Shown one piece after another: positions 6,491 through 62,611 of a stretch of DNA of 64,000 bases. A model generated the notes under the pieces. That model was not told the origin of the DNA, did not search any database, and worked only from the letters and a program-made list of their open reading frames with translations. Position 1 is the first letter of the stretch, and the number at the start of each line of letters is the position of its first letter. This DNA comes from Incurvaria masculella. Lineage: Eukaryota; Arthropoda; Insecta; Lepidoptera; Incurvariidae. The position numbers and the translations under genes are program-made. The stretch covers positions 15,243,001 to 15,307,000 of the forward strand of contig OX335658.1 in assembly GCA_946894095.1 (NCBI GenBank), in the 5' to 3' direction.

Positions 6491-6497
6491 AACATGG

Positions 6498-6811: not shown

Positions 6812-6887
6812 TTTCAGAACCAGTCATAATTCAAAAGCTACTGATCTTCGTCGGTCACCTCTTTGGGCCAAATGCCGTATTTTGCAT

Positions 6888-27600: not shown

Positions 27601-28510
27601 CTTAGTAGCTTGTTTAGAATCAGCAGTAGGATAATCAGCACTTCAGTAGTAAAGGCCCTTTAAGTGTCAATTAAAATAAATAAGCACTTCGTGAAAACCA
27701 GGCTTAGGGTCTCACCAAGTACTGATTAGCTTAAGGGCCATTTTGACTATCTTGCAATCCATACCAGAACAAGATAATTAGCACTTTAGTAATAAAAACC
27801 CTTTAAGTGTCAATTAAAATAAATAAGCACTTCGTGAAAACCAGGCTTAGGGTCTCACCAAGTACTGATTAGCTTAAGGGCCTTTTTTACTATCTTGCAA
27901 TCCATACCAGAACAAGATAATTAGCACTTTAGTAATAAAAGCCCATCAAGTGTAAATTAAAATAAATCAGCGCTTGGTGAAAACCAAGCTTAGGCGTAAT
28001 GTTTTGAAAACTTACGGTTTTCCGGTGTGCAATGCCGTGCTTGGCCGACATGTTTCGCCTCCCACGACGGAAGCATCGTCAGGGCCACTTCGTTGCCCCG
28101 GAGTTACGTCTCACGATGCTTCCGTCGTGGGAGGCGAAACATGTCGGCCAAGCACGGCATTGCACACCGGAAAACCGTAAGTTTTCAAAACATTATGTAC
28201 AGCGACGGCGTAAATCTAAGAACATATGTAAGCTTAGGCGGTTTAGAACTGAATTGACTGACTGAAAACCGTTAAAATTTATAAAAACAATTCCTTGGAA
28301 AATTTAGAATATTTTATCGATTTTTGAAAAACTCTTTTATAGACAGAATTCCAAATGGTCCATGGTGGACGGAACTCCTAAGTCGCTAACACGCACACTT
28401 TGGGAACCGCTGCTCGAAGATGTAAAGATATTTTAAATATGTTTGAAAACTCTCATACCCGTTCCCGCCGAAACTGCGGCCACTAACGTCAGAAACAGAA
28501 ATGACCTCAT
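18673..28510 (-). CDS. Secreted protein of unrecognised family, gene S1 (four exons, 307 aa)
   Basis: Coding exons in transcript order: A 28510-28459, B 26746-26520, C 25783-25495, D 19028-18673; phases 1, 0, 1; 924 nt. Exon A encodes a hydrophobic signal peptide (MRSFLFLTLVAAVSAGTG). B starts GKWSSMRVKYG and ends NPFYDANGFIAGAQLC; C starts QPETIIATGPPTYSPL and ends NCFPGMG; D starts KHYFYNFTYDFNC and includes GVGWQIFGQ and FFTEEPWAIAC. The mature chain has six cysteines, enough for three disulfides, and an NFT glycosylation sequon. All junctions have GT-AG ends and match the paralog S2 in phase. I do not recognise the family and give no function. A LINE in the same orientation fills the C-D intron. 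It converges with the CRAL-TRIO gene ending at 17306. Confidence 0.85.
20102..23050 (-). CDS. LINE ORF2: endonuclease and reverse transcriptase (982 aa)
   Basis: N-terminal apurinic-type endonuclease: YYQNCAGLRTK near residue 10, LTESWL near 38, LIGDYNMPDIRW near 175, and DRHHPP near 260. Reverse transcriptase: NYRPISILSALSKLFERLVH, STITNLTIY, YTDFQKAFDKVDH, SGVPQGSILGPFLFILFIND, and the catalytic YADD followed by DLGVLFDTKL. The C-terminal thumb and tail include YATSVWNPFY. The single frame has no stop, frameshift or missing core motif. The endonuclease carries an unusual low-complexity insert: eight alanines and then a glycine-rich run, before SYIPP. It would nick DNA and reverse-transcribe its own RNA at the target site. 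Confidence 0.93.
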   Translation of the reverse strand: MSNNNLSLYYQNCAGLRTKLNTLYMNIINCDYQILVLTESWLVPDISNSEFCDENIFSIYRADRNRVISQRKDGGGCLIAIRKDLISERYDLPGSAAAAAAAAGIDTVCVMVSLRRQRDNRGGSGDGGGKGGYAQSRERLLLCASYIPPAMSYDAYANHFESIQRAFVDIQDCRLCLIGDYNMPDIRWIVNSEGYCSSSCAVRESSPASLLLNTLCFLSARQYNTHFNTNGRILDLLICGFPCEMLTLPDPLVPPDRHHPPFLCVLHVAPETSLDRCLAPRFKFRDANYTEVNSAIANVDWIGDLNLQSATCAVNIFYDKLYNIIRTHIPARVKKQRQCASWFTPDLLKLYKRKTKAWVKYKIYSNISDYVAFSEIRKRFKIASAECYNKYIYRLENGIATNIKCFWSYVSERRKEGSYPATMKNESETTNNPNEICNMFSEFFKSVYEPSSLDPDSWVEPNDTAFNNISLHSLHFSPDIILKELKNLDINKGAGPDLIEPFFLVAVADTIACPLFIIFNKCISEGVFPDVWKTANITPVFKSGCKNEVKNYRPISILSALSKLFERLVHQAVYPILHDQILSQQHGFVQRRSTITNLTIYSNFIFHSLDNGEQVDSIYTDFQKAFDKVDHELLLKKIAFNGIKGNLLRWFSSYISNRKQRVVVNGYCSDFISVSSGVPQGSILGPFLFILFINDVIHNFRYSKILIYADDMKIYVKIRSKEDCEALQTDLDSFYNYCNQNKLFLSISKCKVITFTKKKQPLYFNYHIGGVLLERVEVIRDLGVLFDTKLHFDKHIDKIINSAYRMMGFVLRTARQFKRVSTYILLYNSLVRSQLEYATSVWNPFYSKYSHSVEMIQRKFLKILHRRMYRRTLSYELHLDQFSLSSLHNRRILLDMSLFFKIVNGLVDCPDLLNQMGLRTPSRSTRNTHLFHLDLCRTNSGFRMPVWRMCNTYNTQFDDSDVDIFFMTSYQFKKAVLCTLSA
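23743..24945 (-). CDS. LINE ORF1: PHD-like zinc finger and coiled-coil RNA-binding protein (400 aa)
   Basis: Residues 5-56 form a C4HC3 PHD-like finger (CGAC, CNSCKQQYHLGC, WVCPVC). A Ser/Pro-rich linker follows, then a coiled coil at about 160-225. The C-terminal part (RSCNIEVQGVPERKGENL, RPKNIIAKLTTRVARDNII, IYINEHLTLQRKLLFREVR) resembles the nucleic-acid-binding end of many insect LINE ORF1 proteins. A Gly/Ser/Asp-rich insert lies at about 270-295. It probably binds the element RNA. Start ATG is at 24945. Confidence 0.88.
   Translation of the reverse strand: MSVKCGACNTDLEGEEAATCNSCKQQYHLGCVSLSGAGFISKRTRANKGEWVCPVCVGNTRMHGGNFNSPGPKGTTAAIRPTDVSPSSAGPVCNQPSSSAPKSQFGLALDISVTNALSKKVTSAPGSPVSDSFPMDSLLQIVDKKMTELTAHCMNKMDECSKRLESKFDELLYSIQSITGRLDNLESKHESHVAEHKREVAELRQELYDVKKRQEDADQQARSCNIEVQGVPERKGENLMGILLDLCTVVGSPISAKDVVAVHRVARGVSGGGGGRSAGDDDTSGDALSSGGIGGEGRPKNIIAKLTTRVARDNIIAAARVRRGVTTESIKVNGPPRKIYINEHLTLQRKLLFREVRTKCTQYKYKYAWVKNGSLLVRRDDDPRSRVLAIRNCNDLDKIK
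25218..25372 (-). repeat. SINE body fragment
   Basis: The T run at 25217-25222 is the A tail in reverse, followed by body blocks (CTAGGTGCCAGGCCAGGACC). It abuts the 5' end of the LINE. Confidence 0.65.
25955..26067. mobile_element. Short foldback element related to the perfect palindrome at 27997
   Basis: Carries AATGTTTTGAAAACTTACGG, the arm GTGCTTGGCCGACATGTTTC, then a shortened second arm CGTAAG...AAAACATTATGTAC. The following flank GTACAGCGACGGTGTAAATC is also found after the 27997 element. It lies in the B-C intron of S1. Confidence 0.6.
26767..26985 (+). mobile_element. Foldback-like element, left half
   Basis: Starts TATTCCGGGAGGTCACGACA and continues into the AGTGGTTGCGTTAGC block and the internal ATATACCTGCTGATGAATAT block; the right arm is missing. 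Begins 20 bp upstream (on the gene strand) of exon B of S1. Confidence 0.7.
27213..27305 (-). repeat. 5S rRNA-like SINE head
   Basis: Reverse of the variant head at 12605-12655 (GGTCACCCATCCAGAACCC, CAGCTTATCAAATCGCAAGG). No SINE body is attached. Confidence 0.6.
27545..27990. repeat. AAGGGCC-type repeat with 143-bp tandem units
   Basis: After a copy of the AAGGGCC element (27545-27660), a 143-bp unit containing AAGTGTCAATTAAAATAAAT and CTTAGGGTCTCACCAAGTAC occurs at 27661 and 27804, with a partial third at 27947. The first two are nearly identical. Confidence 0.8.
27997..28195. repeat. Perfect 83-bp inverted repeat
   Basis: 27997-28079 is the exact reverse complement of 28113-28195 with a 33-nt spacer. 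The arm includes GTGCTTGGCCGACATGTTTC. It sits in intron A-B of gene S1, 260 bp from the signal-peptide exon. Confidence 0.97.
28459..28510 (-). CDS. S1 exon A (signal peptide)
   Basis: ATG at 28510, donor GTATGAG after 28459, phase 1. It encodes a hydrophobic leader of 17 residues. Listed separately because it is too short for ORF finding and defines the start of gene S1. Confidence 0.8.
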
Positions 28511-31855: not shown

Positions 31856-32163
31856 CTATTTCTTAGCATTTACATTGTCGCCGGCAGCGCAAGTGATTGC
31901 CCATGGCTCCTCAGTGAAGAACACGTGCACAGACACAATGGTGTAAGCGTCGATCCAGTCATAGAGGCACTCGTGGACCACCGGAGCGATCATCTCGGCC
32001 GCAACCCTGGGCAAGAAGTCGTACCAGTCGTAGTCGACGACTGTCTTCTGGCCGAAAATTTGCCAGCCGACACCGGTGACATTGTTGTCCTGGCCGAGAA
32101 GGAACCAGCTGTTGAAGTCGTCGCAGTTGAAGTCGTTCGTGAAGTTGTAGAAGTAATGTTTGC
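31856..32163 (-). CDS. S2 exon D (C-terminal exon with early stop)
   Basis: Acceptor before 32163, phase 1, TAG at 31856-31858. It aligns with S1 exon D throughout. Where S1 reads KQQQVLRLEKLR, S2 reads K-K-stop, and the sequence beyond the stop still translates to QMLCFEKLR in the same frame, so a CAG-to-TAG change shortened the protein recently. Confidence 0.85.
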
Positions 32164-35100
32164 CTGGAATGATAAAACATTAAATTTAATTAATACATTC
32201 TGTTAGTTTATTAACATGTGACATGTAATAGATCTGCATAAATGTATTCGCAGACTGGTTCAATTGTTATTTAGGGAAACCTAAATCTTAAACTCTCAAG
32301 CACAAGTATTTATTGGACCAAAGCATCGAATTGGTCACCATAGACATTTGGTCAACGTAGAAATCAATGTATTGTAATTTACTTGTCATTAAAATGTCAT
32401 TGATTTCGAAAAAAATATGAATTCGAGTTTCTTAGGGCAGAGGAGTAATATTTGGAGTAAATTGGTATAAAATGTAAGTGTAAAATGGAGTTGATATAAA
32501 AAATATCTACTAAAAAACCGGCCAAGTGCGAGTCGGACTCGCACACGAAGGGTTCCGTACCATCGTAAAAAAAATCAAGTTTTTTGTATGGGAGCCCCCT
32601 TTAATTTTGATTATGCTCTGTGAAAATTTCAGCTGTCTACCTGTTACGGTTACTGAGATACAGCCCTGTGACAGACGGACAGACGGACGGACGGACGGAC
32701 GGACGGACGGACGGACGGACGGACGGACAGCGGAGGCTTAGTAATAGCGTTCCGTTTTCACCCTTTGGGTACGGAACCCTAAAAACGAGGAAAATATTAT
32801 GTGTACGATGCACGATGAAACATAAATTTAAGGAGAAATCGTGACAATCTAGAAATTACACATTAGAAAAGCACATAAGCCATGATAAAAGAAACACCTG
32901 TGAATTCCGCTATTTAAAACACTTTATCGTAACTATCTTAATCTTAGCTTGAAGCAGGCCAAGATTGATCTGTTTGGCCCACGAAGGGAAGATTACGTTA
33001 CTTTTAGATTGAGAATTGACATGAGTAATTATAAGATTATGAGAAGAATGGAATTATATGGCGTGTCTGATTTTCCAACCGATCTGGTGAACCAGGAAAT
33101 AGTAATATAATTAAACCAACATAAGAAAATCGACTACGGGCGATAACTGTGTCCATGCTCTTAATCTTTTACTAGGTTTTAAAATTTTTGAATTCTAAAA
33201 TATTTTTTTTTTTTTTATGGTACGTCCATCTGCGATCAGTCTTCAGACTATAATCAGATCTCTTGAGTGTGCGTGGTTTTGTAGGTCAAACATGTCCAAT
33301 AACATTAGACCTTCCTCCATACTTAGATCAATCAGAACCGGTTGTCAAGATCCAGTATGTCATATCTTTTAAGTCGTCGTTGCTTGTGATCTGGGATTAG
33401 TAGGTTTGATGCAAGTACGTTGACATGGTTATTAAGTCGGGTTTTGTATTTGGTAGAGACCATTCTTATTTCATCCTTCACCGTAGGAATCTCAAGATGT
33501 TCGTGTATTTCAGTAGTCCGAGTGAACCATTTGGCTATCTGTTTGAGCACGTTATTTTGAAACCTTTGCAGAATTTCGATGTTAGACTTGCTGGCGGTAC
33601 CCCACAGCTGAATACCATATGTCCATATGGGTTTGATGATAGACGTTTGATCTGGAGAGAACATATTACAAAGAAGAGAGACGAATTGAACATCCGCTAT
33701 AAAAAAAAAAATCACCTGGCTCCTTGGCAGAGGCTCCAGTCTGAGTCTAGAGAACAAGCTGCTCATTTACAAGGCAATTCTAAAATATATAATAGTAATC
33801 TATGTCTATATGTTTTAATTTTTTTGAAACATACAAATAATGACTATAAACATTGGAAAACATTTGCCTTTTTTTTGTTAATTTTCGATTATTTTTTTCT
33901 GAAAAATACAGATATTTACAAAAAAACAAAACATACGGACATAGAATAAAGCTTTCTCAAGTAATATAAAAAACAATCATTACAATCTGACAACGTTTAG
34001 GGATAGGGAAACTTTAGGGCCTGAAAGATGATTTCGCTATTTTAATTGCAGTCGCCGTGTAAAATTTTGCCTCGGCGAATGTACAAAGAATGCATTTCTT
34101 GAAATTGTCAAATCTTAGATTTCCTGTGACGACACGACAGCCTGAGTTATCGATTAAACTCTTTTACCCATTCCCGGGAAGCAGTTCTGTTGAGTAAACA
34201 GTGTCTGCTGCAGAAGACTATCGGAATCGTCTGGCACGTATCTGTAGCCGGTAACGCCGTCGGTTGTATCTCTAAACCAGAGTCCGTCGCCTAAGCTTTC
34301 GAAGGATGTGCGGCCTCCAGACCTCAGGGTGGTGGGGTCGACGACCAGGAAGTGGGAGCAAATGTATGCGGACCCAGAGAGGTTCTTAAGCTCATTGGTA
34401 CCAGATGCCAGTGGAAAATACGTTGGAGGTCCAGTGGCGACTATGGTTTCTGGTTGCTGCAAGAAATCAAAATCATGTAGATTCAGACAGTGTTGCGAGA
34501 TAAATTACTACGACGATCTTGATATTTAACAGGTTTGATGATTGACTGCACTGGCGTGCCAGAGGTCTAGGTTCAATTCCTCGCCCCGACATGCACCACT
34601 TTCTTTCTCTTTCTGAGTTCGATAAGTGCATCTCGTCACGAATGCGAGCTGATCCATGTAAAAATTTAGGTCCCCTTGCCCTACTAGGTGGTAGGGTTTA
34701 AGCTTTGCCTGGGTAGGTACCATCGCATTGGATGAAAAGATGAATAGGAAAGCGGGAATGAAAATTAGTCCGTGCTTTCCATCCAGTTCAATGTAGTCGT
34801 GCTAATACATGTAAGGTCCTGGCATGGCACCTAATTCCTTCGGGAATGTGGCGTATTGGGCTAATATCAAAACGGTAGTTGTGAGGTATATGCAATCCAT
34901 GTCAGGTTCCAAAAAAAAGTTGCAGAAAATGTGTGCGACCTCAGTAATTGTAGATATTACTGGGAAATACCATAAACAGACCATTTCAATATATTCATGT
35001 CAATATACCGAGTGGTTATATTAATACCTGTGCAGGCTTAGATGAAAAAGGATTTTCTTTTTCATCTAAGTATGCAGGTACCTATTTAGGAGGTTCATGG

Positions 35101-38100
35101 TTACAAAGTTTGCACAACGGTGTCAACATTTCTCTTTAACAATATGTACATCATTTAGATCCCACAAAATTAAATAGTGCAAATACTACAACCTGCTTAT
35201 GGTAGTATACTGTTAAATGCAGACATTGGAAAGAGAATGAATTCCTAAGTCCCAATAGTTGACGTCTATATGACGGAAAGAGATCTCGACAGCAGATGAG
35301 GGATCTGAAAGTCTCATATTAAAATATAACCAAATTTTTTAATTGATGAGTACCAACACTCTATCATTATTGGTGGTCATTTTATTAGAAATACATAATA
35401 GTTTTAGATATGCAATAAAAATTGGAAAGAAAAAAAATAACAAAAAATATAATATGGATAACATGGACAGTCAACAAAGTATTTCAAGCTTGCTCTACTT
35501 ACACAAAACTGGGCCCCAGCGATAAAACCGTTAGCGTCATAAAACGGATTGAAGCCGAAGTCTTTCTCACTGACGCCTACAAACTGTACAGTAAGGTCAT
35601 TGTCAATGGACACAGCCTGCCAGCGGTCCTCCAGCGCTTCAGCCAAGGTGTTGGGAACCCTCCACAAAAAGGTCTCGTTGTTGCCGGTCTCAGTGGCGCC
35701 GTACTTCACCCGCATGCTGGACCATTTTCCTGAAACATTCAAACCAAACGATATGATCAAGTGTATATACACCGGGTGGCTCAGCTCAAATGGCAGTGGG
35801 CTGGTCACGTCAGCCGAAGAGACGACGACCGTCGGAGTAACCGTGTCCGTGTAACAGTTTGGGAAGACCATCCGCCAGGTGGGAAGACGACATCAAGTGC
35901 GTCGGCGGAAAGCAGTGGTTCCGTGCCGCTGAGGGCCGGGCCGACTGGAAAACAATTTAAGAGGCGTATGTCCAGCAGTGGACGCAAACACGCTGACTGA
36001 CTGACTGTATCAGTCTCTGGAGGCCATTTTTTTCGCTTATTAGTCTAGATACGGAATTCACTCCTTCATCCTCATTGAATCAGTAAATAACTTCACCTAT
36101 TCGGATGCATTTATGGATCTCTGAGGAAGCGAAGAAAGGAGCATGCTTGGTCTAAAACTATCAGATAAAGTAAAAACCAGCCAAGTGCGAGTCGGACTCG
36201 CACACAAAGGGTTCCGTACCATCGTAAAAAAAAACAAAAAAAAAACACGTTTTTTGTATGGGAGCCCCCTTTAATTTTAATTATTTTTTAATCTTACCTA
36301 TTTGTTGTTGTAGCGGCAAAATAAATACACACTCTGTGAACATTTCAGCTGTCTACCTGTTACGGTTACTGAGATACAGCCCTGTGACGGACGGACAGAC
36401 GGACGGACGGACGGACGGACGGACGGACGGACGGACGGACGGACGGACAGCGGAGGCTTAGTAATCGGGTTCCGTTCTCACCCTTTGGGTACGGAACCCT
36501 AAAAACATCAACATTGGATCATAGATGTAAGGAAAAGAACACGAAAACTCAAGTGGCCATGGGTAGGACACATTTGTAGGACAAATGATATGTATAATAT
36601 AAAACAAATTAAAAAAAAAAATTACAAAAAAAATAACCGACTTCAAATAAAAAGCACTAAAAAGTAAAAAAATAATTTCCATTTTTGTAGTTACGATTTC
36701 TGTTTTTTTTTTGAGTCGGCGTCAGCCGGGCACGCGCTGCGCCAATCAAGAGAACCTAACCTAACCTAACCTAACCTAACCTTGGCTGACACCGACTCAA
36801 AAAATAACAGAAATCGTAACTACAAAAATGGAAATTATTTTTTAGTTTTTAGTGCTTTTTCTTTGAAGTCGGTTATTTTTTTTGTAATTTTTTTTTTATT
36901 TGTTTATGTTTAGTGAATCTGAAGTACACTTACTAATTTGTACACGTCCTTTCCAATAAAAAAAACAATCACCGAAATCGCTTGGCGTTATATTGAGTTA
37001 TTCGTCCATTTGTCGTGCACATCTTAATACAAATTTAAGACTTTTATGATTTTCTCATGGATATCATTGTCAGATCTTTAAAATGGGACCACTTGGAAAG
37101 CACTAGCCATCATTTAAAAAAATAATTATCAAAATCGGTTCACCCAGGCAAAAGTTATGAGGTAACAAACATAATAAAAAAAACATACAGACGAATTGAT
37201 AACCTCCTTCTTTTTTGAAGTCGGTTAAAAAGGTAGGTTACTTAGGTAGGTAGCACACCGTAGACCTTTTCGAGTTCGTTTTACAAGCTTGATACAGAAT
37301 CGCGACGGGAGCGAAGAACTTGTTTCCTCCTATATATCAAGCCTCTAACGTGTGTCTCCAGATAAACAGGTTAGCTAATACCTGGGAGTCTACTCATGAG
37401 ATTCTCACCTGTGTGTCACCGGTGACTGCCCGGTGAGTCACAAATTTTCGAAATTGGGCCCTCGGGATTTTCGAAATACTAAATTTATATTTCCTTTTAT
37501 ATGCAACTATGTATTATAGAGGTTATTCTTTTGATTGCGCACACCACGCGGTTGATTCTGACGATCTGATTCTTGAGAAAGTTTTAAAGGCGCAAAATCG
37601 CAGTTCCCATACGAAGTCACGTGACAAATTGTGATTTTGAGATTTCAGAAAAAAAATAATTGGTCAGGTGCTTACCCATTTCTGCACTCAGAATCTACCG
37701 GAAGGGCGCATTGAGAATGTCGTAACCGTGAAACATATGCACAGTCGCACCATAACTTGCTAAACATATTATCGCAACAGAGCAAAATTATACGGGGATG
37801 CGCTTCACGCACTCCTTGCAACAGTGAACACTCTAAATGCATAGCATGCTTGTTTCACGTAATCTTATGTGTGGGTACAGTCACGTATTTTCATGTCTGC
37901 AGTTGAAAGCGTAATAATACATAGGTCAAGGTCAATATAACGAGAAGAGATCCAGAATGTTGTTTCTATTATTATCTGTGGGCTTTCTAGAGGTTACATT
38001 TTACATTATAAATAAATGTGACCTAACAATAATGTCGGGGGCTCTATGTCTGTACACCCGAATTTTCGTTAAGCATATAGTTGGTTCTAGCTGTTGGTAA

Positions 38101-41100
38101 GAATCATATACAGGAATCCTTTTCACACTTTATTGCTGAACCATTATCTCTTCATTTTATGTCATATTTATTTTATAGCTACAAGAAAAAAATAACTATT
38201 GGCGACGTTTTTATTCCCAGTCTTGGACATCAAACCGTCTTTAAAAAAATCATTTCCAATTGCTAGTTCTTATACGTTAGCTTTTTCAGCTGCTACTAAA
38301 TTGCTTGTTTCCATCAGTGTGGATCGATCCGCACATTCAGAACGCTAACATGAAATACCATCTACTCAAATCCTGAACATCATCTCCTTCTACTGCGTCC
38401 CTAGTTTCTGCGTTTATCACTTCACTTATTGCATGTACATGTGCGTATTATTTTTTTCTTTCTTCTCTATAAGTATATTTATTCATGTTTTACTTTATTT
38501 TAGTTTTTTTTTCATTTGTTTGCTACAACTCTGTTTTGTTCCGCCTACCATTTTCTGATTTGGTAAAAGGGTACACTGGCGGAAAATGTCTCAGGCATAA
38601 AGTACCATTATATACGATTTAAGGTGGCCCAACCCGCCCATTTCCCCATACAAAAGGGGAAAGAAGATCACGCCTATATTTCCAGGGATCCAAAATTTTG
38701 CTCAATATAGCTTTATTTGATTGAACTAGATGTCTGATGACCATTGGCATTGTAAAATTGTGTTTGGTTTCCAAGTTATAACTTCCGAAAGTTCGCATTT
38801 TTCGCGCGTTTTATACAATTACTTTGGATGTGGATTACGCAATGATAAAGTAAGAACATCTTAAAAAGATTAGTCATCAGACATAGCTTGTTTAATCAAG
38901 ATTTATAATCTATTTGGTTTTTGTTAGATTTTTGACTACAGCGGTCGTGGTTTACTTGTAGCTATAAGTCGTTTTGAAATTAAAATTTTCGTAAATCTTA
39001 CCAAATCATACACTATGCACATTGTCTTTTTTGTGGACAGGTTGAATCTTCCTCATAACGGAGTCTTATTCTTAGAAACAGAGAAGGTCCCAGAGCGCAA
39101 CAGCACGGTTTTGTACCGTGCCCGCAAATGAGTTGAGGCCGCCGGGTTGGGCCACCTTAAGTGCAATAAACGTTTTTCTGATTTGATTTGAATTATTGTA
39201 GTATTCTTTGATTCACGAATGAGGTCACTTCGTTCAGTATATGGATATGTCGCCCGCTAGGTGCAAAACTATTCATGGTATGGTGGACCGAAGCAGAATA
39301 TTAAAACCGTAAAGGAATATTCCTACACCTATCCTGATCCATGCAGGACTTAAGCCACGGCGCCATTGTCGGTTCGCAAATCGAGTTTGCTCGCACGTCA
39401 AGGTCGAGCAAGGCTGACAATCCACTGACCTAACCATAACAGTCTCCACCGCGGACTTGAGTGGAACTGTCTTGTCGACTGTATGTGAGTGAATTAAAAT
39501 TGTTTCAAAGACCGTCGGAATCATACCGTTGCTAGCTGATCTATAGTTTATTATCTTTCAGGTAAAGGTATGTATGTTTCAGGTATATCGCTGTTCGAGT
39601 GTTGTGTGCAGTATCTTGCAATTACATATGCTGTCGTGATTTTATTATTTACGATGAATATAGGTTGGAGCGCGCTTGTAGAATAACAAGTATTAGCATA
39701 CCTACCTGTATCATTATTTAACTTGATAACAGATCTCAGTGGAAGAAATCATGCATGTAGGAATCTCAAGATGTTCGTGTATTTCAGTAGTCCGAGTGAA
39801 CCATTTGGCTATCTGTTTGAGCACGTTATTTTGAAACCTTTGCAGAATTTCGATGTTAGACTTGCTGGCGGTACCCCACAGCTGAATACCATATGTCCAT
39901 ATGGGTTTGATGATAGACGTTTGATCTGGAGAGAACATATTACAAAGAAGAGAGACGAATTGAACATCCGCTATAAAAAAAAAAATCACCTGGCTCCTTG
40001 GCAGAGGCTCCAGTCTGAGTCTAGAGAACAAGCTGCTCATTTACAAGGCAATTCTAAAATATATAATAGTAATCTATGTCTATATGTTTTAATTTTTTTG
40101 AAACATACAAATAATGACTATAAACATTGGAAAACATTTGCCTTTTTTTTGTTAATTTTCGATTATTTTTTTCTGAAAAATACAGATATTTACAAAAAAA
40201 CAAAACATACGGACATAGAATAAAGCTTTCTCAAGTAATATAAAAAACAATCATTACAATCTGACAACGTTTAGGGATAGGGAAACTTTAGGGCCTGAAA
40301 GATGATTTGGCTATTTTAATTGCAGTCGCCGTGTAAAATTTTGCCTCGGCGAATGTACAAAGAATGCATTTCTTGAAATTGTCAAATCTTAGATTTCCTG
40401 TGACGACACGACAGCCTGAGTTATCGATTAAACTCTTTTACCCATTCCCGGGAAGCAGTTCTGTTGAGTAAACAGTGTCTGCTGCAGAAGACTATCGGAA
40501 TCGTCTGGCACGTATCTGTAGCCGGTAACGCCGTCGGTTGTATCTCTAAACCAGAGTCCGTCGCCTAAGCTTTCGAAGGATGTGCGGCCTCCAGACCTCA
40601 GGGTGGTGGGGTCGACGACCAGGAAGTGGGAGCAAATGTATGCGGACCCAGAGAGGTTCTTAAGCTCATTGGTACCAGATGCCAGTGGAAAATACGTTGG
40701 AGGTCCAGTGGCGACTATGGTTTCTGGTTGCTGCAAGAAATCAAAATCATGTAGATTCAGACAGTGTTGCGAGATAAATTACTACGACGATCTTGATATT
40801 TAACAGGTTTGATGATTGACTGCACTGGCGTGCCAGAGGTCTAGGTTCAATTCCTCGCCCCGACATGCACCACTTTCTTTCTCTTTCTGAGTTCGATAAG
40901 TGCATCTCGTCACGAATGCGAGCTGATCCATGTAAAAATTTAGGTCCCCTTGCCCTACTAGGTGGTAGGGTTTAAGCTTTGCCTGGGTAGGTACCATCGC
41001 ATTGGATGAAAAGATGAATAGGAAAGCGGGAATGAAAATTAGTCCGTGCTTTCCATCCAGTTCAATGTAGTCGTGCTAATACATGTAAGGTCCTGGCATG

Positions 41101-44100
41101 GCACCTAATTCCTTCGGGAATGTGGCGTATTGGGCTAATATCAAAACGGTAGTTGTGAGGTATATGCAATCCATGTCAGGTTCCAAAAAAAAGTTGCAGA
41201 AAATGTGTGCGACCTCAGTAATTGTAGATATTACTGGGAAATACCATAAACAGACCATTTCAATATATTCATGTCAATATACCGAGTGGTTATATTAATA
41301 CCTGTGCAGGCTTAGATGAAAAAGGATTTTCTTTTTCATCTAAGTATGCAGGTACCTATTTAGGAGGTTCATGGTTACAAAGTTTGCACAACGGTGTCAA
41401 CATTTCTCTTTAACAATATGTACATCATTTAGATCCCACAAAATTAAATAGTGCAAATACTACAACCTGCTTATGGTAGTATACTGTTAAATGCAGACAT
41501 TGGAAAGAGAATGAATTCCTAAGTCCCAATAGTTGACGTCTATATGACGGAAAGAGATCTCGACAGCAGATGAGGGATCTGAAAGTCTCATATTAAAATA
41601 TAACCAAATTTTTTAATTGATGAGTACCAACACTCTATCATTATTGGTGGTCATTTTATTAGAAATACATAATAGTTTTAGATATGCAATAAAAATTGGA
41701 AAGAAAAAAAATAACAAAAAATATAATATGGATAACATGGACAGTCAACAAAGTATTTCAAGCTTGCTCTACTTACACAAAACTGGGCCCCAGCGATAAA
41801 ACCGTTAGCGTCATAAAACGGATTGAAGCCGAAGTCTTTCTCACTGACGCCTACAAACTGTACAGTAAGGTCATTGTCAATGGACACAGCCTGCCAGCGG
41901 TCCTCCAGCGCTTCAGCCAAGGTGTTGGGAACCCTCCACAAAAAGGTCTCGTTGTTGCCGGTCTCAGTGGCGCCGTACTTCACCCGCATGCTGGACCATT
42001 TTCCTGAAACATTCAAACCAAACGATATGATCAAGTGTATATACACCGGGTGGCTCAGCTCAAATGGCAGTGGGCTGGTCACGTCAGCCGAAGAGACGAC
42101 GACCGTCGGAGTAACCGTGTCCGTGTAACAGTTTGGGAAGACCATCCGCCAGGTGGGAAGACGACATCAAGTGCGTCGGCGGAAAGCAGTGGTTCCGTGC
42201 CGCTGAGGGCCGGGCCGACTGGAAAACAATTTAAGAGGCGTATGTCCAGCAGTGGACGCAAACACGCTGACTGACTGACTGTATCAGTCTCTGGAGGCCA
42301 TTTTTTTCGCTTATTAGTCTAGATACGGAATTCACTCCTTCATCCTCATTGAATCAGTAAATAACTTCACCTATTCGGATGCATTTATGGATCTCTGAGG
42401 AAGCGAAGAAAGGAGCATGCTTGGTCTAAAACTATCAGATAAAGTAAAAACCAGCCAAGTGCGAGTCGGACTCGCACACAAAGGGTTCCGTACCATCGTA
42501 AAAAAAAACAAAAAAAAAACACGTTTTTTGTATGGGAGCCCCCTTTAATTTTAATTATTTTTTAATCTTACCTATTTGTTGTTATAGCGGCAAAATAAAT
42601 ACACACTCTGTGAACATTTCAGCTGTCTACCTGTTACGGTTACTGAGATACAGCCCTGTGACGGACGGACAGACGGACGGACGGACGGACGGACGGACGG
42701 ACGGACGGACGGACGGACGGACAGCGGAGGCTTAGTAATCGGGTTCCGTTCTCACCCTTTGGGTACGGAACCCTAAAAACATCAACATTGGATCATAGAT
42801 GTAAGGAAAAGAACACGAAAACTCAAGTGGCCATGGGTAGGACACATTTGTAGGACAAATGATATGTATAATATAAAACAAATTAAAAAAAAAAATTACA
42901 AAAAAAATAACCGACTTCAAATAAAAAGCACTAAAAAGTAAAAAAATAATTTCCATTTTTGTAGTTACGATTTCTGTTTTTTTTTTGAGTCGGCGTCAGC
43001 CGGGCACGCGCTGCGCCAATCAAGAGAACCTAACCTAACCTAACCTAACCTAACCTTGGCTGACACCGACTCAAAAAATAACAGAAATCGTAACTACAAA
43101 AATGGAAATTATTTTTTAGTTTTTAGTGCTTTTTCTTTGAAGTCGGTTATTTTTTTTGTAATTTTTTTTTTATTTGTTTATGTTTAGTGAATCTGAAGTA
43201 CACTTACTAATTTGTACACGTCCTTTCCAATAAAAAAAACAATCACCGAAATCGCTTGGCGTTATATTGAGTTATTCGTCCATTTGTCGTGCACATCTTA
43301 ATACAAATTTAAGACTTTTATGATTTTCTCATGGATATCATTGTCAGATCTTTAAAATGGGACCACTTGGAAAGCACTAGCCATCATTTAAAAAAATAAT
43401 TATCAAAATCGGTTCACCCAGGCAAAAGTTATGAGGTAACAAACATAATAAAAAAAACATACAGACGAATTGATAACCTCCTTCTTTTTTGAAGTCGGTT
43501 AAAAAGGTAGGTTACTTAGGTAGGTAGCACACCGTAGACCTTTTCGAGTTCGTTTTACAAGCTTGATACAGAATCGCGACGGGAGCGAAGAACTTGTTTC
43601 CTCCTATATATCAAGCCTCTAACGTGTGTCTCCAGATAAACAGGTTAGCTAATACCTGGGAGTCTACTCATGAGATTCTCACCTGTGTGTCACCGGTGAC
43701 TGCCCGGTGAGTCACAAATTTTCGAAATTGGGCCCTCGGGATTTTCGAAATACTAAATTTATATTTCCTTTTATATGCAACTATGTATTATAGAGGTTAT
43801 TCTTTTGATTGCGCACACCACGCGGTTGATTCTGACGATCTGATTCTTGAGAAAGTTTTAAAGGCGCAAAATCGCAGTTCCCATACGAAGTCACGTGACA
43901 AATTGTGATTTTGAGATTTCAGAAAAAAAATAATTGGTCAGGTGCTTACCCATTTCTGCACTCAGAATCTACCGGAAGGGCGCATTGAGAATGTCGTAAC
44001 CGTGAAACATATGCACAGTCGCACCATAACTTGCTAAACATATTATCGCAACAGAGCAAAATTATACGGGGATGCGCTTCACGCACTCCTTGCAACAGTG

Positions 44101-47100
44101 AACACTCTAAATGCATAGCATGCTTGTTTCACGTAATCTTATGTGTGGGTACAGTCACGTATTTTCATGTCTGCAGTTGAAAGCGTAATAATACATAGGT
44201 CAAGGTCAATATAACGAGAAGAGATCCAGAATGTTGTTTCTATTATTATCTGTGGGCTTTCTAGAGGTTACATTTTACATTATAAATAAATGTGACCTAA
44301 CAATAATGTCGGGGGCTCTATGTCTGTACACCCGAATTTTCGTTAAGCATATAGTTGGTTCTAGCTGTTGGTAAGAATCATATACAGGAATCCTTTTCAC
44401 ACTTTATTGCTGAACCATTATCTCTTCATTTTATGTCATATTTATTTTATAGCTACAAGAAAAAAATAACTATTGGCGACGTTTTTATTCCCAGTCTTGG
44501 ACATCAAACCGTCTTTAAAAAAATCATTTCCAATTGCTAGTTCTTATACGTTAGCTTTTTCAGCTGCTACTAAATTGCTTGTTTCCATCAGTGTGGATCG
44601 ATCCGCACATTCAGAACGCTAACATGAAATACCATCTACTCAAATCCTGAACATCATCTCCTTCTACTGCGTCCCTAGTTTCTGCGTTTATCACTTCACT
44701 TATTGCATGTACATGTGCGTATTATTTTTTTCTTTCTTCTCTATAAGTATATTTATTCATGTTTTACTTTATTTTAGTTTTTTTTTCATTTGTTTGCTAC
44801 AACTCTGTTTTGTTCCGCCTACCATTTTCTGATTTGGTAAAAGGGTACACTGGCGGAAAATGTCTCAGGCATAAAGTACCATTATATACGATTTAAGGTG
44901 GCCCAACCCGCCCATTTCCCCATACAAAAGGGGAAAGAAGATCACGCCTATATTTCCAGGGATCCAAAATTTTGCTCAATATAGCTTTATTTGATTGAAC
45001 TAGATGTCTGATGACCATTGGCATTGTAAAATTGTGTTTGGTTTCCAAGTTATAACGTCCGAAAGTTCGCATTTTTCGCGCGTTTTATACAATTACTTTG
45101 GATGTGGATTACGCAATGATAAAGTAAGAACATCTTAAAAAGATTAGTCATCAGACATAGCTTGTTTAATCAAGATTTATAATCTATTTGGTTTTTGTTA
45201 GATTTTTGACTACAGCGGTCGTGGTTTACTTGTAGCTATAAGTCGTTTTGAAATTAAAATTTTCGTAAATCTTACCAAATCATACACTATGCACATTGTC
45301 TTTTTTGTGGACAGGTTGAATCTTCCTCATAACGGAGTCTTATTCTTAGAAACAGAGAAGGTCCCAGAGCGCAACAGCACGGTTTTGTACCGTGCCCGCA
45401 AATGAGTTGAGGCCGCCGGGTTGGGCCACCTTAAGTGCAATAAACGTTTTTCTGATTTGATTTGAATTATTGTAGTATTCTTTGATTCACGAATGAGGTC
45501 ACTTCGTTCAGTATATGGATATGTCGCCCGCTAGGTGCAAAACTATTCATGGTATGGTGGACCGAAGCAGAATATTAAAACCGTAAAGGAATATTCCTAC
45601 ACCTATCCTGATCCATGCAGGACTTAAGCCACGGCGCCATTGTCGGTTCGCAAATCGAGTTTGCTCGCACGTCAAGGTCGAGCAAGGCTGACAATCCACT
45701 GACCTAACCATAACAGTCTCCACCGCGGACTTGAGTGGAACTGTCTTGTCGACTGTATGTGAGTGAATTAAAATTGTTTCAAAGACCGTCGGAATCATAC
45801 CGTTGCTAGCTGATCTATAGTTTATTATCTTTCAGGTAAAGGTATGTATGTTTCAGGTATATCGCTGTTCGAGTGTTGTGTGCAGTATCTTGCAATTACA
45901 TATGCTGTCGTGATTTTATTATTTACGATGAATATAGGTTGGAGCGCGCTTGTAGAATAACAAGTATTAGCATACCTACCTGTATCATTATTTAACTTGA
46001 TAACAGATCTCAGTGGAAGAAATCATGCACGGTTAATTTTGTAGTCAATTATATTAGATTCGTTCATTTATTTTAGTTGTTTAGACCCGATTAGATTTGG
46101 TTTTTTAATTTTTTCAATAGCATGTGCCATGCTCGTAATTCCTAATATTGCACGGCTCGGCTACATTGAAATGGATGAAAAATATTGTCAACTATAATTT
46201 CCAATTAGATTATCTTTTTTTTAAATGGGATTGATCCGATCCGGTCCGAGCGGAACTTCCCACTAAGTAAGAAAGGGATCGACCCCAAAATGTTTGGGAT
46301 TCCGTTTACATTCTTTCCACTTATTTTTGATCTGATTGAGGTCAATATTTGGAGTTTTCTTATTCAACCGCGCCATATCGACTCAACCGATTTTGATTCA
46401 ATTTTGTAGATAGATACATTGGACGAACCTTTTGAAACAGCACTTTGGGCTGCTCTTTATCCAGGAAAGAATTTAGCCCGAAATCAGTCACGTCATAATA
46501 TTAATCATTCAAACACTCTAATAAATGTTAAAACAACGTAAAAAAACGATGCAAGCTCGTTACAAAAAATCTACTAAACTCAAGTGTTGGTGTATTTTTG
46601 CAGGAACGCACAGAACATATAATATCCTGACGCAGGAACGTCGTAAGGATGCCAGATGTATCGGATAGGCCGGACCAGCAGCGCCAGGAGGACGTCGCCA
46701 AGGTCAAAGAGTGGCTGAGGCAACAGTCACATCTACCGACTGATATGGGTTGGTTCTCAGTCCTGTGGAATTTAAGGCGACCTATATGCAGTCACTTCGA
46801 ATATTACATGTGGACCTCTGCAGCCTACGTAGTCTAGTGGCGCGATGTCTGCGGTCCGATAAGTTTGGTGAAGCACTCTGAGCGCGGTTGGCTCCCAGAT
46901 GGGTGACCGTTTTCAACCGTTGAGGCTGGCCGTGGTTCGGATTCCATATAAAACTGTAGTCCTTTCCTTAATAGATGGTAGGGTTATTCCCGCCCGGGCA
47001 ATATAAGGAAGGTCGAACATTTGTATTGTTTCAATAAAAATACTTTTAATCTTCCAATCACCCCCATAAGGCCATCTTTAAGCCATCTCAAATTAAAAAA

Positions 47101-50100
47101 TGTATCCCATTTTTGTAAATTAACTTCCTTAGAATATTCTCAAATTAGGAGATGAATTACTCAACGATAAAATAAAAACATCTTAAAACGTTAAGTCATC
47201 AGACATAGCTTGTTTCATGAAGATTTATAATCAATATGGTTTTTAAAAATAAAAATAAATTGCATGTATCTCAAACCATTTGGGCAGCGTACGCCGATTA
47301 CCCGGCGAAGAAACGGTTTTTTCCGACTTCGTTCATAAATATAGCATTTATAATTTAAAACGCTTAAATTTATAAATACAGTTTTTTTTTTCAAATAATT
47401 AATAAATATTAAATAATTAATAAACATATAGCTTATGTTAGACAGGATTAATGTAGCTTTCGAATGTTGAAATATGTTTTTAAATCGGTTCAGTAGTTTT
47501 AAAGATTACCCTGTACGAACAAAAAAAAAAACAAACATTACCTCTTTAATAATGTAGATTAAAGCATGTAGGCATGTCCGAAAACATTTCTACGGAACCT
47601 GGTTACGCCATAATGTCTTCGCGTAATCTATGGCTGTGTGGTTCTATGTAATGTGCATGACCCTAGTCCTATCCTTGTTCCCCGTATACACATGTCCCTC
47701 TCTCTCTTTCACCTGATGGAGCGAAGATTGACAGCGTCTGCTGAAAAGGCTGAAAGGCCCAGCTGTCAGTGCAATTTTTGATACCGCGATGCACGGACAC
47801 GCCATGTCATCGTAGCACCGGTTCCCGCCAAAACTATCTCGCCGCCGCCGGGTCCTTGGGTACCCAGGAGTACCTCGCCAGTACCGCGTGTGTTCGAAAC
47901 TCGAACAATCCAAGGGACTTTCGGTGCTCTTCATCGTCACATCGACGCAGCGTTCCTGAACCGCATCCTGTGGGAGAAGGAGAAGCGTGGTGGTCACCCG
48001 CACACTTCTGGAAGTCTCCATCGTGGTGAGTCGTCCCACCTTCATTTATCCAACCCCTAGAAGATTGTGCATTGCATGGAACCACATACCTTTTATTTTT
48101 TCCGAACCTATATAGGCCTCCCTTTTATTTTACAAACCTTCTTTACAAAAACCCAGCGACCTACCCGCGCCACCAGAACCCTTGATGTGCGATTCTAAGT
48201 TCTAAAATCGGTTCAGCAGTTTTAAAGATTACCCTGTACAAACAAAAAAAAAATGCAAACAGTACCTCTTTACTAGTGTAGATTAAAGCATGTAGGCATG
48301 TCCGAAAACATTTCTACGGAACCCTTGATGAGCGAATCTAACTTCTAAATTCTAAAATCGATTCAGTAGTTTTAAAGATTACCCTGTACAAACAAAACAA
48401 AATGCAAACATTACCTCTTTACTAGTGTAGATTAAAGCATGCAGGCATGTCCGAAAACATTTCTACGGAACCTTTGATGAGCGAATCTAACTCGCACTTT
48501 GGTCAAGTTTTTAAAGGTGTTAACCTTCGCAATGATTCGTTTCTGGTACGTCCGTGTATTTTTCGTTTGTTTATCCGTGTGTCTTTCAAACCTCTGTCCG
48601 AGTATCAGGTCCTCTTTCGTTTTTATTTCGTTTTGTAGTCAATGCATATAAAGTATTCGTGGTTATTTTAAACCTATATCGAATATCGCATATTTGTTGT
48701 AAGAATTTGAATTACAAACCTAACTACGAATTATTATATTTGAATTTTGAGCTGCTCTTTGCTCAAGAGCGCGGAATATTACTTCCCATGCCAGAGGTTA
48801 TGGGTTAATCTCTTGATCTTTCTAAGTTGGATAAATGTCGTCACGAATGCGAACTACTAGGTGTTAGGGTCAAGCTTGCCCTGGTTGGGGTACCATTGTA
48901 TTGTATGAAAAGATATTCGAAACGGCGATGAAAATTTGGCCCTGTTTTCCATTCAGCTCAATGTAGCCATACTCATAAATGGAAGCTGGTATGTCACCTA
49001 ACTCCTCGGGGAATGCGGTGTCTTGGGCTAGTGCCGCTTCGACCATCTTTCACTCGATGCGAAAGGGACGAACAACTCAATATCACGCCAACCGATTTCA
49101 ATGATTCTTTTTTATTGGAAAATTATTGGCAATTCCAGACTCACAATAAACAAATAAACAAAAATTTTAACAAAAAACTTAAATTTTAACAAAAAAACAA
49201 TGATCGTAACAACAAAAATGGAATAATTTTATGTATTTAATGGATACGGTCATTACCGTTATCTCATTAATTTGAGTTTCAGCGACATCTACATTAGAAG
49301 CATCCTCGATCCTGCTTCTGACAAATGTCACGACCAATACTTTTTCAGATTATTTTCAAAATCCGATTACAATGCTTCAAATGTAGATGTCGCTGAAACT
49401 CAATTTATTAAAAAAAATATAATTTACTTTTAATTTTTAGTGCATGTAAATTGGTTTTGGAATACTTTATCTTTGAAGTTTTTTTTTTATTTTTACTCAT
49501 GGAATAGCCTATCTATTGCTTCCAGACGAAATGGTACTGCTCAGATTCCTGCACAGCTGCTACTACAGCCTGGAGAACACTAAGCGATGCCTCGAGCAGT
49601 TCTTCACCATGCGGGCACAGCATCCGGAGTTTTTCAACCATCGGGACCCCTTGTCTAAAGAAATTCAACAACAGCTGGACATCACGTAAGATTGTTTTTT
49701 TATCTGGCTGAGGTCGATTTCTTTTTGGAGATTCACCCGAGCGGAGCATGGTAAAATATGGTTCAACCTTCGCGTGGGTGTTATTCAAACGGTCAGTTAA
49801 AAAAACCGGATCTCGACAGTCGAACTATAGTGATCAAGGCCTATTCCTGGAATTCCGTAATCGGGATTTAGGAATCCTGAGTCAAAGCGAATTTCCTGAC
49901 GAAAAGATTCCGGAGAAATGTTAATCAATTTTATCACGGTTAATAAAGTTAATCACGGACGGACGGATAGCGGAGGCTTAGTAATAGGGTTCCGTTGGCA
50001 CCCTTTGGGTACGGAACCCTAAAAAGCGCAGCCGATGAAATCTTTTTTTTTCGCAGACTCTTCGCGAGCACTAAATGCGAAAAGACAAAAAAAAACTTCG

Positions 50101-53100
50101 CATTCTGGCAACTAAACGACCCGAACCTGGACAAATACATCTTCTACGACTGTTTCAAGACGTTCTTCATGCAGACGGACGTGTGGCTAATGGAGGAGCA
50201 GTTCCTGGAGGAAGAAGACGTGGTGGTGATAGACTGCAGGGGAATCCCTTTCAAGATCGTCACAGCCGTCAATGTTTCAGGAATAAGGCAATGTTTCAAG
50301 TATTTACTGGTGAGGAAATAATAGCATCAGTATACAGTTATTGTTTAGTCAGTCAGCGTGTTTGCGTCCACTGCTGGACATACGCCTCTCCAATACTTCT
50401 CCAGTCCTCCCGGCCCTCAGCGGTACGGAACCACTGATTTCCGCCGACGCACTTGATGTCGTCTTCCCAACAGTTATTGTTTATCTACTCTAAAAACCGG
50501 CCAAGTGCGAGTCGGACTTGCACACGAAGGGTTTCGTACCATCGTACAAGATTTAACACAATATACCTGATTATATTGTGTTCCCTCTTTAATTTTTATC
50601 ATTTTTTTATTTTGCCTATTAGTTGTTATACCGGCAAAATAAATACACACTCTGTGAAAATTTCAGCTGCCTACCTACCTATTACTGTTCATGAGGTACA
50701 GCCCTGTGACAGACGGACGGACGGACGAACGGACGGAAGGACGGACGGAAGGACGGACGGACGGACGGACGGACGGACAGATGGACGGACAGCGGAGGCT
50801 TAGTAATTTTATTTATTTATTTTTTTATTTATTCATGTAACATGTAACAATAGGGTTCCGTTTGGCAGCCTTTGGGTACAGTACAATGTAGGTAGGATGT
50901 ACATATATAATGATATCTTTGGACCTTGTCAGCCCTCGAAAAAGTGTGTTTTTGAAGATTTTAGCGCAAGAAATGTAGCATAAAATTGTATCACTAAATG
51001 CATTAAGTCAAAATCTACTTTTTGTGACTTAATGCATTCTTAAAGTAAGCCTTAGAAAATGTCAAAATTGGTCCCTCGCTCCCGGCCCCCTCACGCCTAC
51101 TACGCATGCGTACGGAACAAATGTCAAAACAGCTAACCGTGGGGGCAAGGGCATGCTATTATATGGTGTGTTATATACTATTGTAGGTAGTTAATTAGGC
51201 TACAGGAAACTTCGCGCAGTGCACGATCTCGTAACATGGAAATTGAGGCTGCCTCGAGTAAGGCGTTGATCGAATTCACCTCAAAAATATTTTGCAGGAA
51301 GCTTTACCTATGCGTCTGAAGCAAGTTCACGTTATCAACTGTCCACCGTTTATTGACGTGCTGTATGGCTTGGTTAAGCCTGTACTTCCACGGGAGATTC
51401 GCAATCTTGTAAGTATATTTACATAGACTTATATTTTTGATGCTCACACTAGAAACCGGTCATCCTTATTGAACATATGATATCAGATCGAAGCTGTCAC
51501 TTCTTGGTGGCTGTGCTGTCTTTGCTATCCCACAATGACAGACAAAAAATAAATCTTTATACCGCAAAGTCTAACTACATATCCCTTGGAAATGTTATGG
51601 CTGCCGAAATCTTAAGTAAGAGAAATTTAACGTTGGGTATTAGACGTTACAGTCTGGTCAAACTATGTGCGCAGACCACTAAATAAACTGGCAACCCTGA
51701 AATATTTACAATATCTAATGCTTCGCACTTGTTATCGTTTGAATATTTGTTATCCTTTCAGCTGTATTCAGTTGTTGAAATTTTAAACGCACGCAAAATA
51801 CTACTCCGAATACTATTATTATAGTATAACTTGTGTCACTGCCGATTTAAGCCGACTCCAACTTTACAATCAACCGAGTATCTTTTTTTAAATTGATATC
51901 AGATACAAAGCTAAACCTCTGAGATATGTTCACCAATTAATTATAATTCTCATGAACTTTTGGCAAGTGATTCAATATGTCTTGATACTTGATATTGATG
52001 TGAGCAACATATTGTAGATAAATGATTAAAAAAAACATTCACTACAATCTTTGAACGTGCTTGCGGGAATATGTGCGACAAGGTCCTCATATCGTTTTTT
52101 TCTACTCACTAAGCCTACCCCGTAAATACGTGATTGTATAAGAGATCTTTTCTAATTATTTAATAGTCTCAAAACGGTCTCTGCTGAATCCAAGATCCTG
52201 CTGTGCAGGACTCTAATGTTGAATAAAATAGTAAGTAAATACGAGTATGTGATTATCCTTACCTTTGTATTACAGAGGCGTTTGCATGAATTAACGTTGT
52301 AATTATTTCTTCCTCCTTTGCGCTACACAGATCCACTTCCATCAGCCAAAATCGGAGACACTTTTCGAGTTCATACCCAGGGAGATGGTACCGCAAGAGG
52401 TCGGTGGCACCGGACCCAAAGGAACAGAAGATATGCAAGAATGGATTTCATTAATGAAGAAGAACAGGTATTTTTTGCTAATTCATCCAGTATTCAAACG
52501 ACTATCAACGATTCCCTTGCCATATCGAAACAAAGTAGACGAACAAAGGTTATTGATGTGTTTGAAAGTGGTAAGTCGTAAGCTAATATTTTTGTTACAG
52601 AATTTTAGCTGCGTTGCGATTTTTTGAAGGAATCTGACATGGATTCCTTCCGTTATGATATTAGCCCAATACAGCACATTCCCAAGGAATTAGATGCAAT
52701 GCCAGGACCTTCCCTTTATTAGCACGGCTACATTATTTTTTCCTTGCCGCATGGTTTCCGAACAATGGAACAGCTCGAATTATTTAACTCAGAAAGAGAA
52801 ATAAATTGGTGCATGACCAGGGCGAGGATTTGAACTCAGACCACTCGCATGAAAGGCAAGTCCCTTAGCCCCTAATCCACGAGTTGTAGATTACCTAGTT
52901 CCAGACCCCCTAATTGGAATAGTGTTAAGTCTTTTACAGCTAGGGGGCCCTTAATGTTTTATTTTGGCTTTAGAGTTCTAAGGGCCCATTTTGTTTTAAA
53001 GACAGAAGTTCTTACCGGAGGATTATATCTCCTATCACAATTAACTTACTGTAATTTTACTAATACAAATATGGAATACTATAACGGATGGATAAGCAGC

Positions 53101-61235: not shown

Positions 61236-62611
61236 ATGAAGGTGAATATTTTCGTCCGAATTATTGAAAAGTTATTACAGAAATTGTGAAATAAGTGCAC
61301 GTGGGGCATACGCGATGGGTTCTCTTGAGATAGGTTCGTGAGAAGTGCCGTAAAATCCGGTGATGCGTCTACACTTGGCGGATTGAGATCTCGTGCCCTT
61401 TCTTTAGCTTGTTTCTCGCTTCGAAAGTGGGGTGGGGTGTGTGATGTGATGTTATACTGTTGTCGATGTGCTAGCTTCAAGTCGCTGCCAAGCAAAGGTT
61501 CTATTGATGTCATGCCTTTGAGCTTGTAACCTCAATTTTACTAGTGCTCCGAACTCAGATCTAATAGTGACCGATTCTCTGCCCTAACACGTGCATTAAA
61601 AACATGTTTTCACTACCTGTTCCCTCTTATGGTTTCATTTGTACCCCCCACGCGTTGTCTGTTTATTTTATTTTAGGTTTTGGTTTGGTTGTTTTTTTGT
61701 CCTTGCACTAAAACATTGCTTCGGGTCTCTTCAATTACATGTTAGATTAGGTATGTTTGCATGTCAAAATCTCCATTCGAATTATAACATTATGTTTTGC
61801 AGTCTTATTTACAGAATGCTAAGCGCCCAATGCTATGCTATAAAAGTAATCATAGTCATACACATTTCCGTAAGTTCCCCTAAGCTTAATGTTTGCCAGA
61901 TCTGCACATCTGGTGGGTTATATGCGACAGGGAAGAGCAATGGCATCGAGCAGTTGTGCCACGCACCATGCGTGTCACATTTACAAGATGCCGCACATTA
62001 TTATTATTATAAAAACAATGTTTTTTATAAGTCCGTTGGCTTTATTAACCAACTATATTGAGCCATAATTTAAAATCTTAATGTTTACATCTCGCTCTAA
62101 TGCACATATTTGTCTGGGTTTTACTACCGTTCACTTAACAAACTATAAATGCACACGTCACCATCCTAACTTTGTGGAAAACTAGAGAAATCATAAAGAT
62201 TTCACAAATAAATATTTCAAATTCCATGAGCGTGACTCCCTTTGTATTGATAACGATTTGAGAAATGGTGTCACCGAGCAGATGTGTTCCATCTCTCTCT
62301 AAATTGCGGTAGTGGTACTCTAGTTGTCGTCTCACTCCCACACTCTGTTCGTCTTGTAAGCACAGTGTTAGGTGAAAGGTTTAACCTTGACCTATCTGTT
62401 CCCCAGCTGAACGTGTCATACCCGGCGACGGGATGCCAGAAGCTGCTGGAGGTGGTGGACGAGCACAAGCTGCGCGTGTTCTACGAGCGGCGGATGGGCG
62501 CCGAGGTGGAGGCGGACGGGCTCGGCGACGAGTGGAAGGGATACGTTGTGCGCGTCGCCGGCGGCAACGACAAGCAGGGCTTCCCCATGAAGCAGGGGGT
62601 GCTCACTAACA
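61236..62611 (+). CDS. RpS6: Ribosomal protein S6, first two coding exons (gene continues past window)
   Basis: Exon 1 is 61236-61241 (ATGAAG) with donor GTGAAT; exon 2 is 62407-62611 after the acceptor CCCCAG; it ends in phase 1 with donor GTGAGT. The product begins MK then [50 protein letters not shown] and [18 protein letters not shown], the highly conserved N-terminus of eS6. It is a component of the small ribosomal subunit; its C-terminal phosphorylation sites are encoded by later exons outside the window. The MK micro-exon before intron 1 follows the usual RpS6 layout. Exon 2 is much richer in G/C than its surroundings, as expected for a highly expressed gene. Each of the two introns seen carries an H/ACA-like snoRNA. 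Confidence 0.95.
61877..62000 (+). ncRNA. H/ACA box snoRNA-like gene in RpS6 intron 1
   Basis: 124 nt with two hairpins. First hairpin closes CCCT with AGGG and has the apical stem CCAGAT / ATCTGG around CTGCAC. H box AGAGCA at 61934-61939. Second hairpin: GGCATC / GATGCC base, pocket, then the upper stem GTGCCACGC / GCGTGTCAC with one mismatch and an ACCAT loop. ACA box at 61995-61997, three bases before the end. The target rRNA site was not determined; the pocket strands of the second hairpin are GAGCAGTT and ATTTACAA. Almost identical to 63424-63547. Confidence 0.85.

Follow-up and report, generated by a model that had tools for sequence, protein, structure and literature searches.

A probable recent tandem duplication of a two-exon cassette in a predicted secreted-protein gene of Incurvaria masculella

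We analyzed a 64,000-nucleotide stretch of the genome of the lepidopteran Incurvaria masculella (assembly GCA_946894095.1, contig OX335658.1, positions 15,243,001 to 15,307,000 of the forward strand), hereafter called the window, in whose coordinates all positions are given. The minus strand of the window carries a predicted gene, S2, whose product would be secreted and whose exon order is A-B-C-B-C-D. The repeated exon pair lies in two nearly identical blocks, and the results presented here suggest that S2 has likely undergone a genuine, very recent tandem duplication of the B-C cassette by end joining. As judged from the assembled DNA, the duplication itself is probably real rather than an assembly error. 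Most likely, it is a structural variant of recent origin that is close to neutral and may still be segregating.

Two near-identical copies in tandem

A repeat distance of 6,274 bp dominates the self-comparison of the window, accounting for 6,174 repeated 25-mer pairs, against 88 pairs for the runner-up distance of 143. This offset confirmed the 6.27-kb tandem duplication proposed in an initial annotation of the region (positions 33483 to 46029) and allowed both copies to be located exactly: copy 1 spans positions 33483 to 39755 (6,273 bp, carrying exons C1 and B1) and copy 2 spans positions 39757 to 46029 (carrying exons C2 and B2). The copies lie head to tail at one locus, as expected of a tandem intragenic duplication, and they match at 6,270 of 6,273 positions with no insertions or deletions (indels). 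The annotation had estimated about three differences, none of them exonic. Exactly three were found (34035 C/G, 36310 G/A, and 38783 T/G, each compared with the base 6,274 positions further on), and none lies inside exon B or C. Because only 0.25 exonic mismatches are expected by chance (P of none = 0.78), their absence means little. Copy 1 contains 15 homopolymers of at least 8 bases, all equal in length across the copies given the lack of indels, and its (GACG)15.8 and (AACCT)6 arrays also have the same length in copy 2.

The (AACCT)6 arrays, at positions 36753 to 36782 and 43027 to 43056 within the duplicated block, consist of what we take to be the arthropod telomere unit. The (GACG)n arrays at positions 32670 to 32728, 36386 to 36448, 42660 to 42722, and 50708 to 50790 are part of a dispersed repeat family that is also found at 6497 to 6813; among the matches listed, its longer nonduplicated pairs are about 76 to 91% alike.

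Near-identical copies would also arise if the assembly had entered a single locus twice in succession, be it as one sequence or as two haplotypes. According to the available text of PMC9516828, false duplications are common in certain assemblies and may give genes spurious exons. The same text recognizes false duplications by read depth that is halved or very low, by gaps separating the copies, by linked reads that are discordant, and by single-copy k-mers, and it describes true duplications, including an allele-specific tandem one within a contig, that are without such gaps. In the case of S2, a gap between the copies, which is the usual though not the sole form of false heterotype duplication, is absent, and there are no N bases anywhere in the 64-kb window. 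Furthermore, three substitutions accompanied by no indels and by equal homopolymers and microsatellites are ill suited to either diverged haplotypes or long-read error, and the single extra base at the sharp junction looks like the product of end joining (see below). We consider an assembly error unlikely.

Structure of the junction

The two copies are separated by a single filler base, a T at position 39756, which belongs to neither copy. This base also copies neither neighbor of the duplicated block, since the bases adjoining the block are both C (33482 on the left, 46030 on the right). When an 800-bp region around the left breakpoint was compared with its 800-bp counterpart at the right breakpoint, only matches of 8 to 13 bases were detected (best E value, 0.031), and no homology joining the two breakpoints was found between these regions. 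End joining is recognized by the lack of long breakpoint homology together with a small filler or microhomology, and the junction has this form, with a filler of 1 bp. One extra base at the joint is an outcome expected of end joining and not of unequal crossing-over between repeats. Origin by recombination between repeats was therefore rejected, both because no match connects the breakpoints and because of the one-base filler. Under the end-joining mechanism, two unrelated broken ends would have been joined with one added base, giving rise to a tandem duplication that copied the B-C cassette of S2.

The left breakpoint falls within a minus-strand open reading frame (ORF; positions 33335 to 33766). 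This frame presumably resembles the end of a Jockey-type element; no Pfam match to it was detected at E ≤ 0.01.

Gene model of S2

On the predicted gene model, both breakpoints lie in introns, the exons are copied whole, and the reading frame is kept. All exons are on the minus strand. Predicted exon A (56070 to 56133) contains the start codon and a 21-residue signal peptide and ends in phase 1 at the donor CAG/GTAAGT. Exon B2 (41777 to 42003; 227 bp; acceptor tttcag, donor gtaagt) is entered in phase 1 and left in phase 0, and exon C2 (40442 to 40730; 289 bp; acceptor ttgcag, donor gtaaaa) is entered in phase 0 and left in phase 1. Exons B1 (35503 to 35729) and C1 (34168 to 34456) are identical to B2 and C2, respectively, and in both copies of the cassette the splice dinucleotides are intact and the splice sites identical. 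Exon D (31856 to 32163) is the last coding exon and carries the stop codon; its DNA is 87% identical to that of the corresponding exon, D′, of a paralogue, S1. The duplication created a new C2-B1 intron of 4,712 bp (35730 to 40441), which holds the duplication junction and combines the first part of the former C-D intron with the last part of the former A-B intron. The initial annotation had predicted this splice at exactly the same coordinates, with 40442 joined to 35729.

Because B runs from phase 1 to phase 0 and C from phase 0 to phase 1, the pair is symmetric, whereas either exon alone is not. The claim that the two exons form a phase-1 symmetric cassette is thus borne out: together they measure 516 bp, and the cassette enters and leaves in phase 1. 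To gauge how remarkable this symmetry is, the 6,274-bp unit was slid over the S2 map without the second copy, excluding placements that cut exons, copied none, or included A or D. B and C were copied whole in 2,005 of 3,052 placements and B alone in 1,047; C was never copied alone without D. Two in three placements are therefore symmetric by virtue of the gene layout, and the symmetry of the cassette is unremarkable. Selection inferred from the symmetry was rejected on the same grounds, given that this fraction of random internal-exon placements would be symmetric.

Under the stricter of two sets of cut-offs, exon A was the sole signal-exon candidate on either strand of the window (candidate 56133; hydrophobicity, 3.71; donor, 8.2), and the same cut-offs yielded no candidates in 30 Markov sequences of window length, one strand each. 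The looser cut-offs let weaker candidates through. We infer that exon A belongs to S2 and is joined to B2 across a 14-kb intron. Alternatively, the block may have its own promoter and first exon, in which case copy 1 would be a complete gene with the order A-B1-C1-D and copy 2 only a piece that lacks D. That exon A is a prediction only is in keeping with such an arrangement. However, the signal candidates that lie upstream of B2 within copy 2, at 44027 (hydrophobicity, 2.14; donor, 4.5) and at 45151/45133 (2.11; 5.2), are weak compared to candidate 56133, which makes an independent first exon within the block highly improbable.

On the opposite strand, a plus-strand ORF at 49971 to 50318 would fall in the first intron of S2. 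It is similar to another plus-strand ORF at 10399 to 10698 (39% identity over 76 amino acids). We take both to be CRAL-TRIO-like; neither had a Pfam match at E ≤ 0.01.

Paralogue S1 and the age of the duplication

S1 lies downstream of S2, on the same strand, and has one B-C pair. Its exons B′ (26520 to 26746) and C′ (25495 to 25783) have the same lengths and phases as B and C, and exon D′ (18673 to 19028) contains the stop codon and encodes a C-terminal extension of 16 amino acids. Judging from S1 and S2, a single B-C pair would be the ancestral state. Across 274 codons aligned between S1 and S2, the nonsynonymous divergence (dN) was 0.079 and the synonymous divergence (dS) was 0.454 (dN/dS = 0.175), with 65 of the 110 differing sites at third codon positions. 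Because S1 retains B, C, and D at this dN/dS ratio, the paralogue comparison indicates that the three are genuine coding exons under purifying selection between the paralogues. The search for a signal-peptide exon of S1 returned only a weaker candidate, at 28510 to 28459 (hydrophobicity, 2.83; donor, 5.2).

The divergence of the two copies of the duplicated block is 0.00048 (Poisson 95% range, 0.0001 to 0.0014). This is approximately 950-fold below the dS of S1 and S2 (325- to 4,600-fold from the Poisson count alone), a rough comparison of mostly intron sites with synonymous sites that leaves out gene conversion. The duplication appears to be very young, in agreement with the initial annotation and supported by the three mismatches and the lack of indels.

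Near the S1 exons, an inverted repeat of about 200 bp (27997 to 28195) is 92% identical to its own reverse complement and resembles a small foldback element. Half-copies of it are present at 25955 to 26027, in the B′-C′ intron of S1.

Predicted transcripts and proteins

The full transcript, A-B2-C2-B1-C1-D, is open for 467 amino acids up to the normal terminal stop. The transcripts A-B2-C2-D, A-B2-C1-D, and A-B1-C1-D each encode the identical 295-amino-acid protein and end at the same terminal stop, so that both lengths given in the initial annotation are exact on the predicted model. The frame is broken if only B1 (214 amino acids) or only C2 (104 amino acids) is skipped. Inclusion of all six exons would be the simplest expectation, because all splice sites are unchanged copies; by default, the spliceosome would include them all and generate a predicted protein with two B-C units. 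Since every one-pair splice yields 295 amino acids, the long protein need not be made, and since the old product can be obtained in three ways, the duplication is buffered. Any splice that uses one whole pair would restore the ancestral protein, and the allele would be tolerated.

These properties also fit a duplication that is real but silent at the protein level, with splicing bypassing one pair, by mutually exclusive use or skipping, so that only the 295-amino-acid protein is produced. The pairs B2-C2, B2-C1, and B1-C1 all lead to this identical protein, and tandem exon duplication is often linked to mutually exclusive choice (PMC9013439, in the text available). In contrast, both copies bear the same splice sites, and nothing known would cause one of them to be skipped. 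Moreover, most of the substitution events catalogued for tandemly duplicated exons are ancient in the portion of PMC9741552 that was accessible. Exclusive bypass of one pair seems somewhat unlikely.

If both units are translated, the composition of the protein changes. There are 7 cysteines in the 295-amino-acid form and 10 in the 467-amino-acid form; one of these is in the signal peptide, leaving 6 and 9 in the mature chains. The cassette thus adds three cysteines, and with nine in the mature protein, at least one is without a partner within the chain. N-glycosylation motifs increase from four to six. It is possible, although doubtful, that the 467-amino-acid protein is produced but folds wrongly or lacks stability, the allele being mildly harmful and bound to be lost. 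Consistent with this outcome are the three cysteines per cassette and the loss, for the first C unit, of the D residues found next to it in both paralogues (FPGMG-KHYF is turned into FPGMG-KWSS). The fold models give it no help, since those of exon C alone and exon D alone (two sequences each) had mean predicted local distance difference test (pLDDT) scores of 41.5 and 35.8, respectively, and are unusable. The initial annotation had described the locus, provided that the assembly is right, as a clean case of new protein architecture. This was an overstatement, since each cassette carries an odd number of cysteines and nothing marks B-C as a domain in its own right.

Protein family and other features of the window

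Relatives of S1 and S2 were sought in a collection of 5.8 billion proteins, using a search that requires shared 5-residue words. The S1-S2 alignment had no relatives at E ≤ 10 among the 7,996 candidates listed and scored, and the single-pair S2 protein without exon A had none at E ≤ 1e-3 (434 candidates). No Pfam families were found for S1 or S2 at E ≤ 10, and a PDB search with S1 only gave one match (E = 0.68), which was judged to be due to chance. The reverse transcriptase of a long interspersed nuclear element (LINE) from the window was searched against the same protein collection and returned at least 95 matches (7,995 scored). Among the matches listed, 11 carried an organism in their name; we take these to represent nine moths (34 to 46% identity), one butterfly, and one plant. 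The collection therefore includes insects, and the null result for S1 and S2 has some weight. The LINE matches, the (AACCT)n arrays, and the Jockey-like fragment at the left breakpoint also point weakly to an arthropod source of the DNA. On the basis of these searches, S1 and S2 look like a lineage-restricted secreted family.

The LINE itself (minus strand, 20105 to 23077 and 23743 to 24969) has an open reverse transcriptase frame of 991 amino acids, and its upstream ORF carries a PHD finger and a Baculo_FP_2nd domain. Its best relatives are 44 to 48% identical among the matches listed, and it was possibly active recently. A ribosomal protein S6 exon is located at 62254 to 62655 on the plus strand (PF01092, E = 4.1e-26). 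Scans of the window for Rfam families and transfer RNAs produced no matches.

Discussion

Several observations weigh against a genuine, recent end-joining duplication of the S2 cassette and its proposed product. One locus assembled twice would also give identity as high as that seen here. Exon A is separated by 14 kb from B2, which lies downstream of it, and sequence comparison within the window revealed no equivalent of exon A at S1. The odd cysteine count per cassette makes correct folding of the 467-amino-acid product doubtful. Finally, by raw count, three of the six-base strings that span the junction are found again less than 150 bp from the right breakpoint, so that the filler base might be templated.

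Because the coding copies are identical and the one-pair product is unchanged, the locus offers a natural test of immediate cassette inclusion versus bypass. It is likewise a natural test of how doubling a segment with an odd number of cysteines affects secretion. Should the duplication turn out to be an assembly error, it would be a good example of one that mimics a new protein.

Intragenic exon duplication has long been known, and S2 is an unusually young and clean example. In human haptoglobin, exons 3 and 4 are duplicated and an added cysteine links the chains into polymers (PMC3678932, available text); the Hp2 form results from a 1.7-kb intragenic duplication and has a longer chain (PMC3898332, available text). 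As far as these sources describe it, Hp2 is similar to S2 in that an internal exon pair is doubled inside a gene for a secreted protein, lengthening the chain and adding cysteine (three in the predicted S2 protein). The S2 block is larger, at 6.27 kb, and the likeness is one of analogy, with no kinship claimed. The added cysteines of S2 might just as well cause misfolding. By this analogy, S2 could be an Hp2-like allele that has only just arisen and still segregates, in an orphan family of secreted proteins, in which both units are translated and a free thiol allows disulfide-linked multimers to form beside a monomer derived from pair skipping. We regard this scenario as improbable. If true, it would show a new protein architecture at the moment of its origin, while the same gene continued to make the ancestral product.

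S2 also resembles the tandem exon duplications catalogued in human and fly, which are head-to-tail copies of internal exons in one gene. In the accessible text of PMC9741552, however, the substitution events are mostly ancient, so that their first effects are not visible, and the exons are used singly, whereas S2 has a near-identical two-exon cassette of which both copies may be included. The segregating tandem duplications of Drosophila yakuba (PMC5460883) are, like that of S2, young and a source of new gene structures. The cases described in the available part of that study involve chimeras between genes and recruited noncoding sequence, whereas the S2 duplication lies inside one gene.
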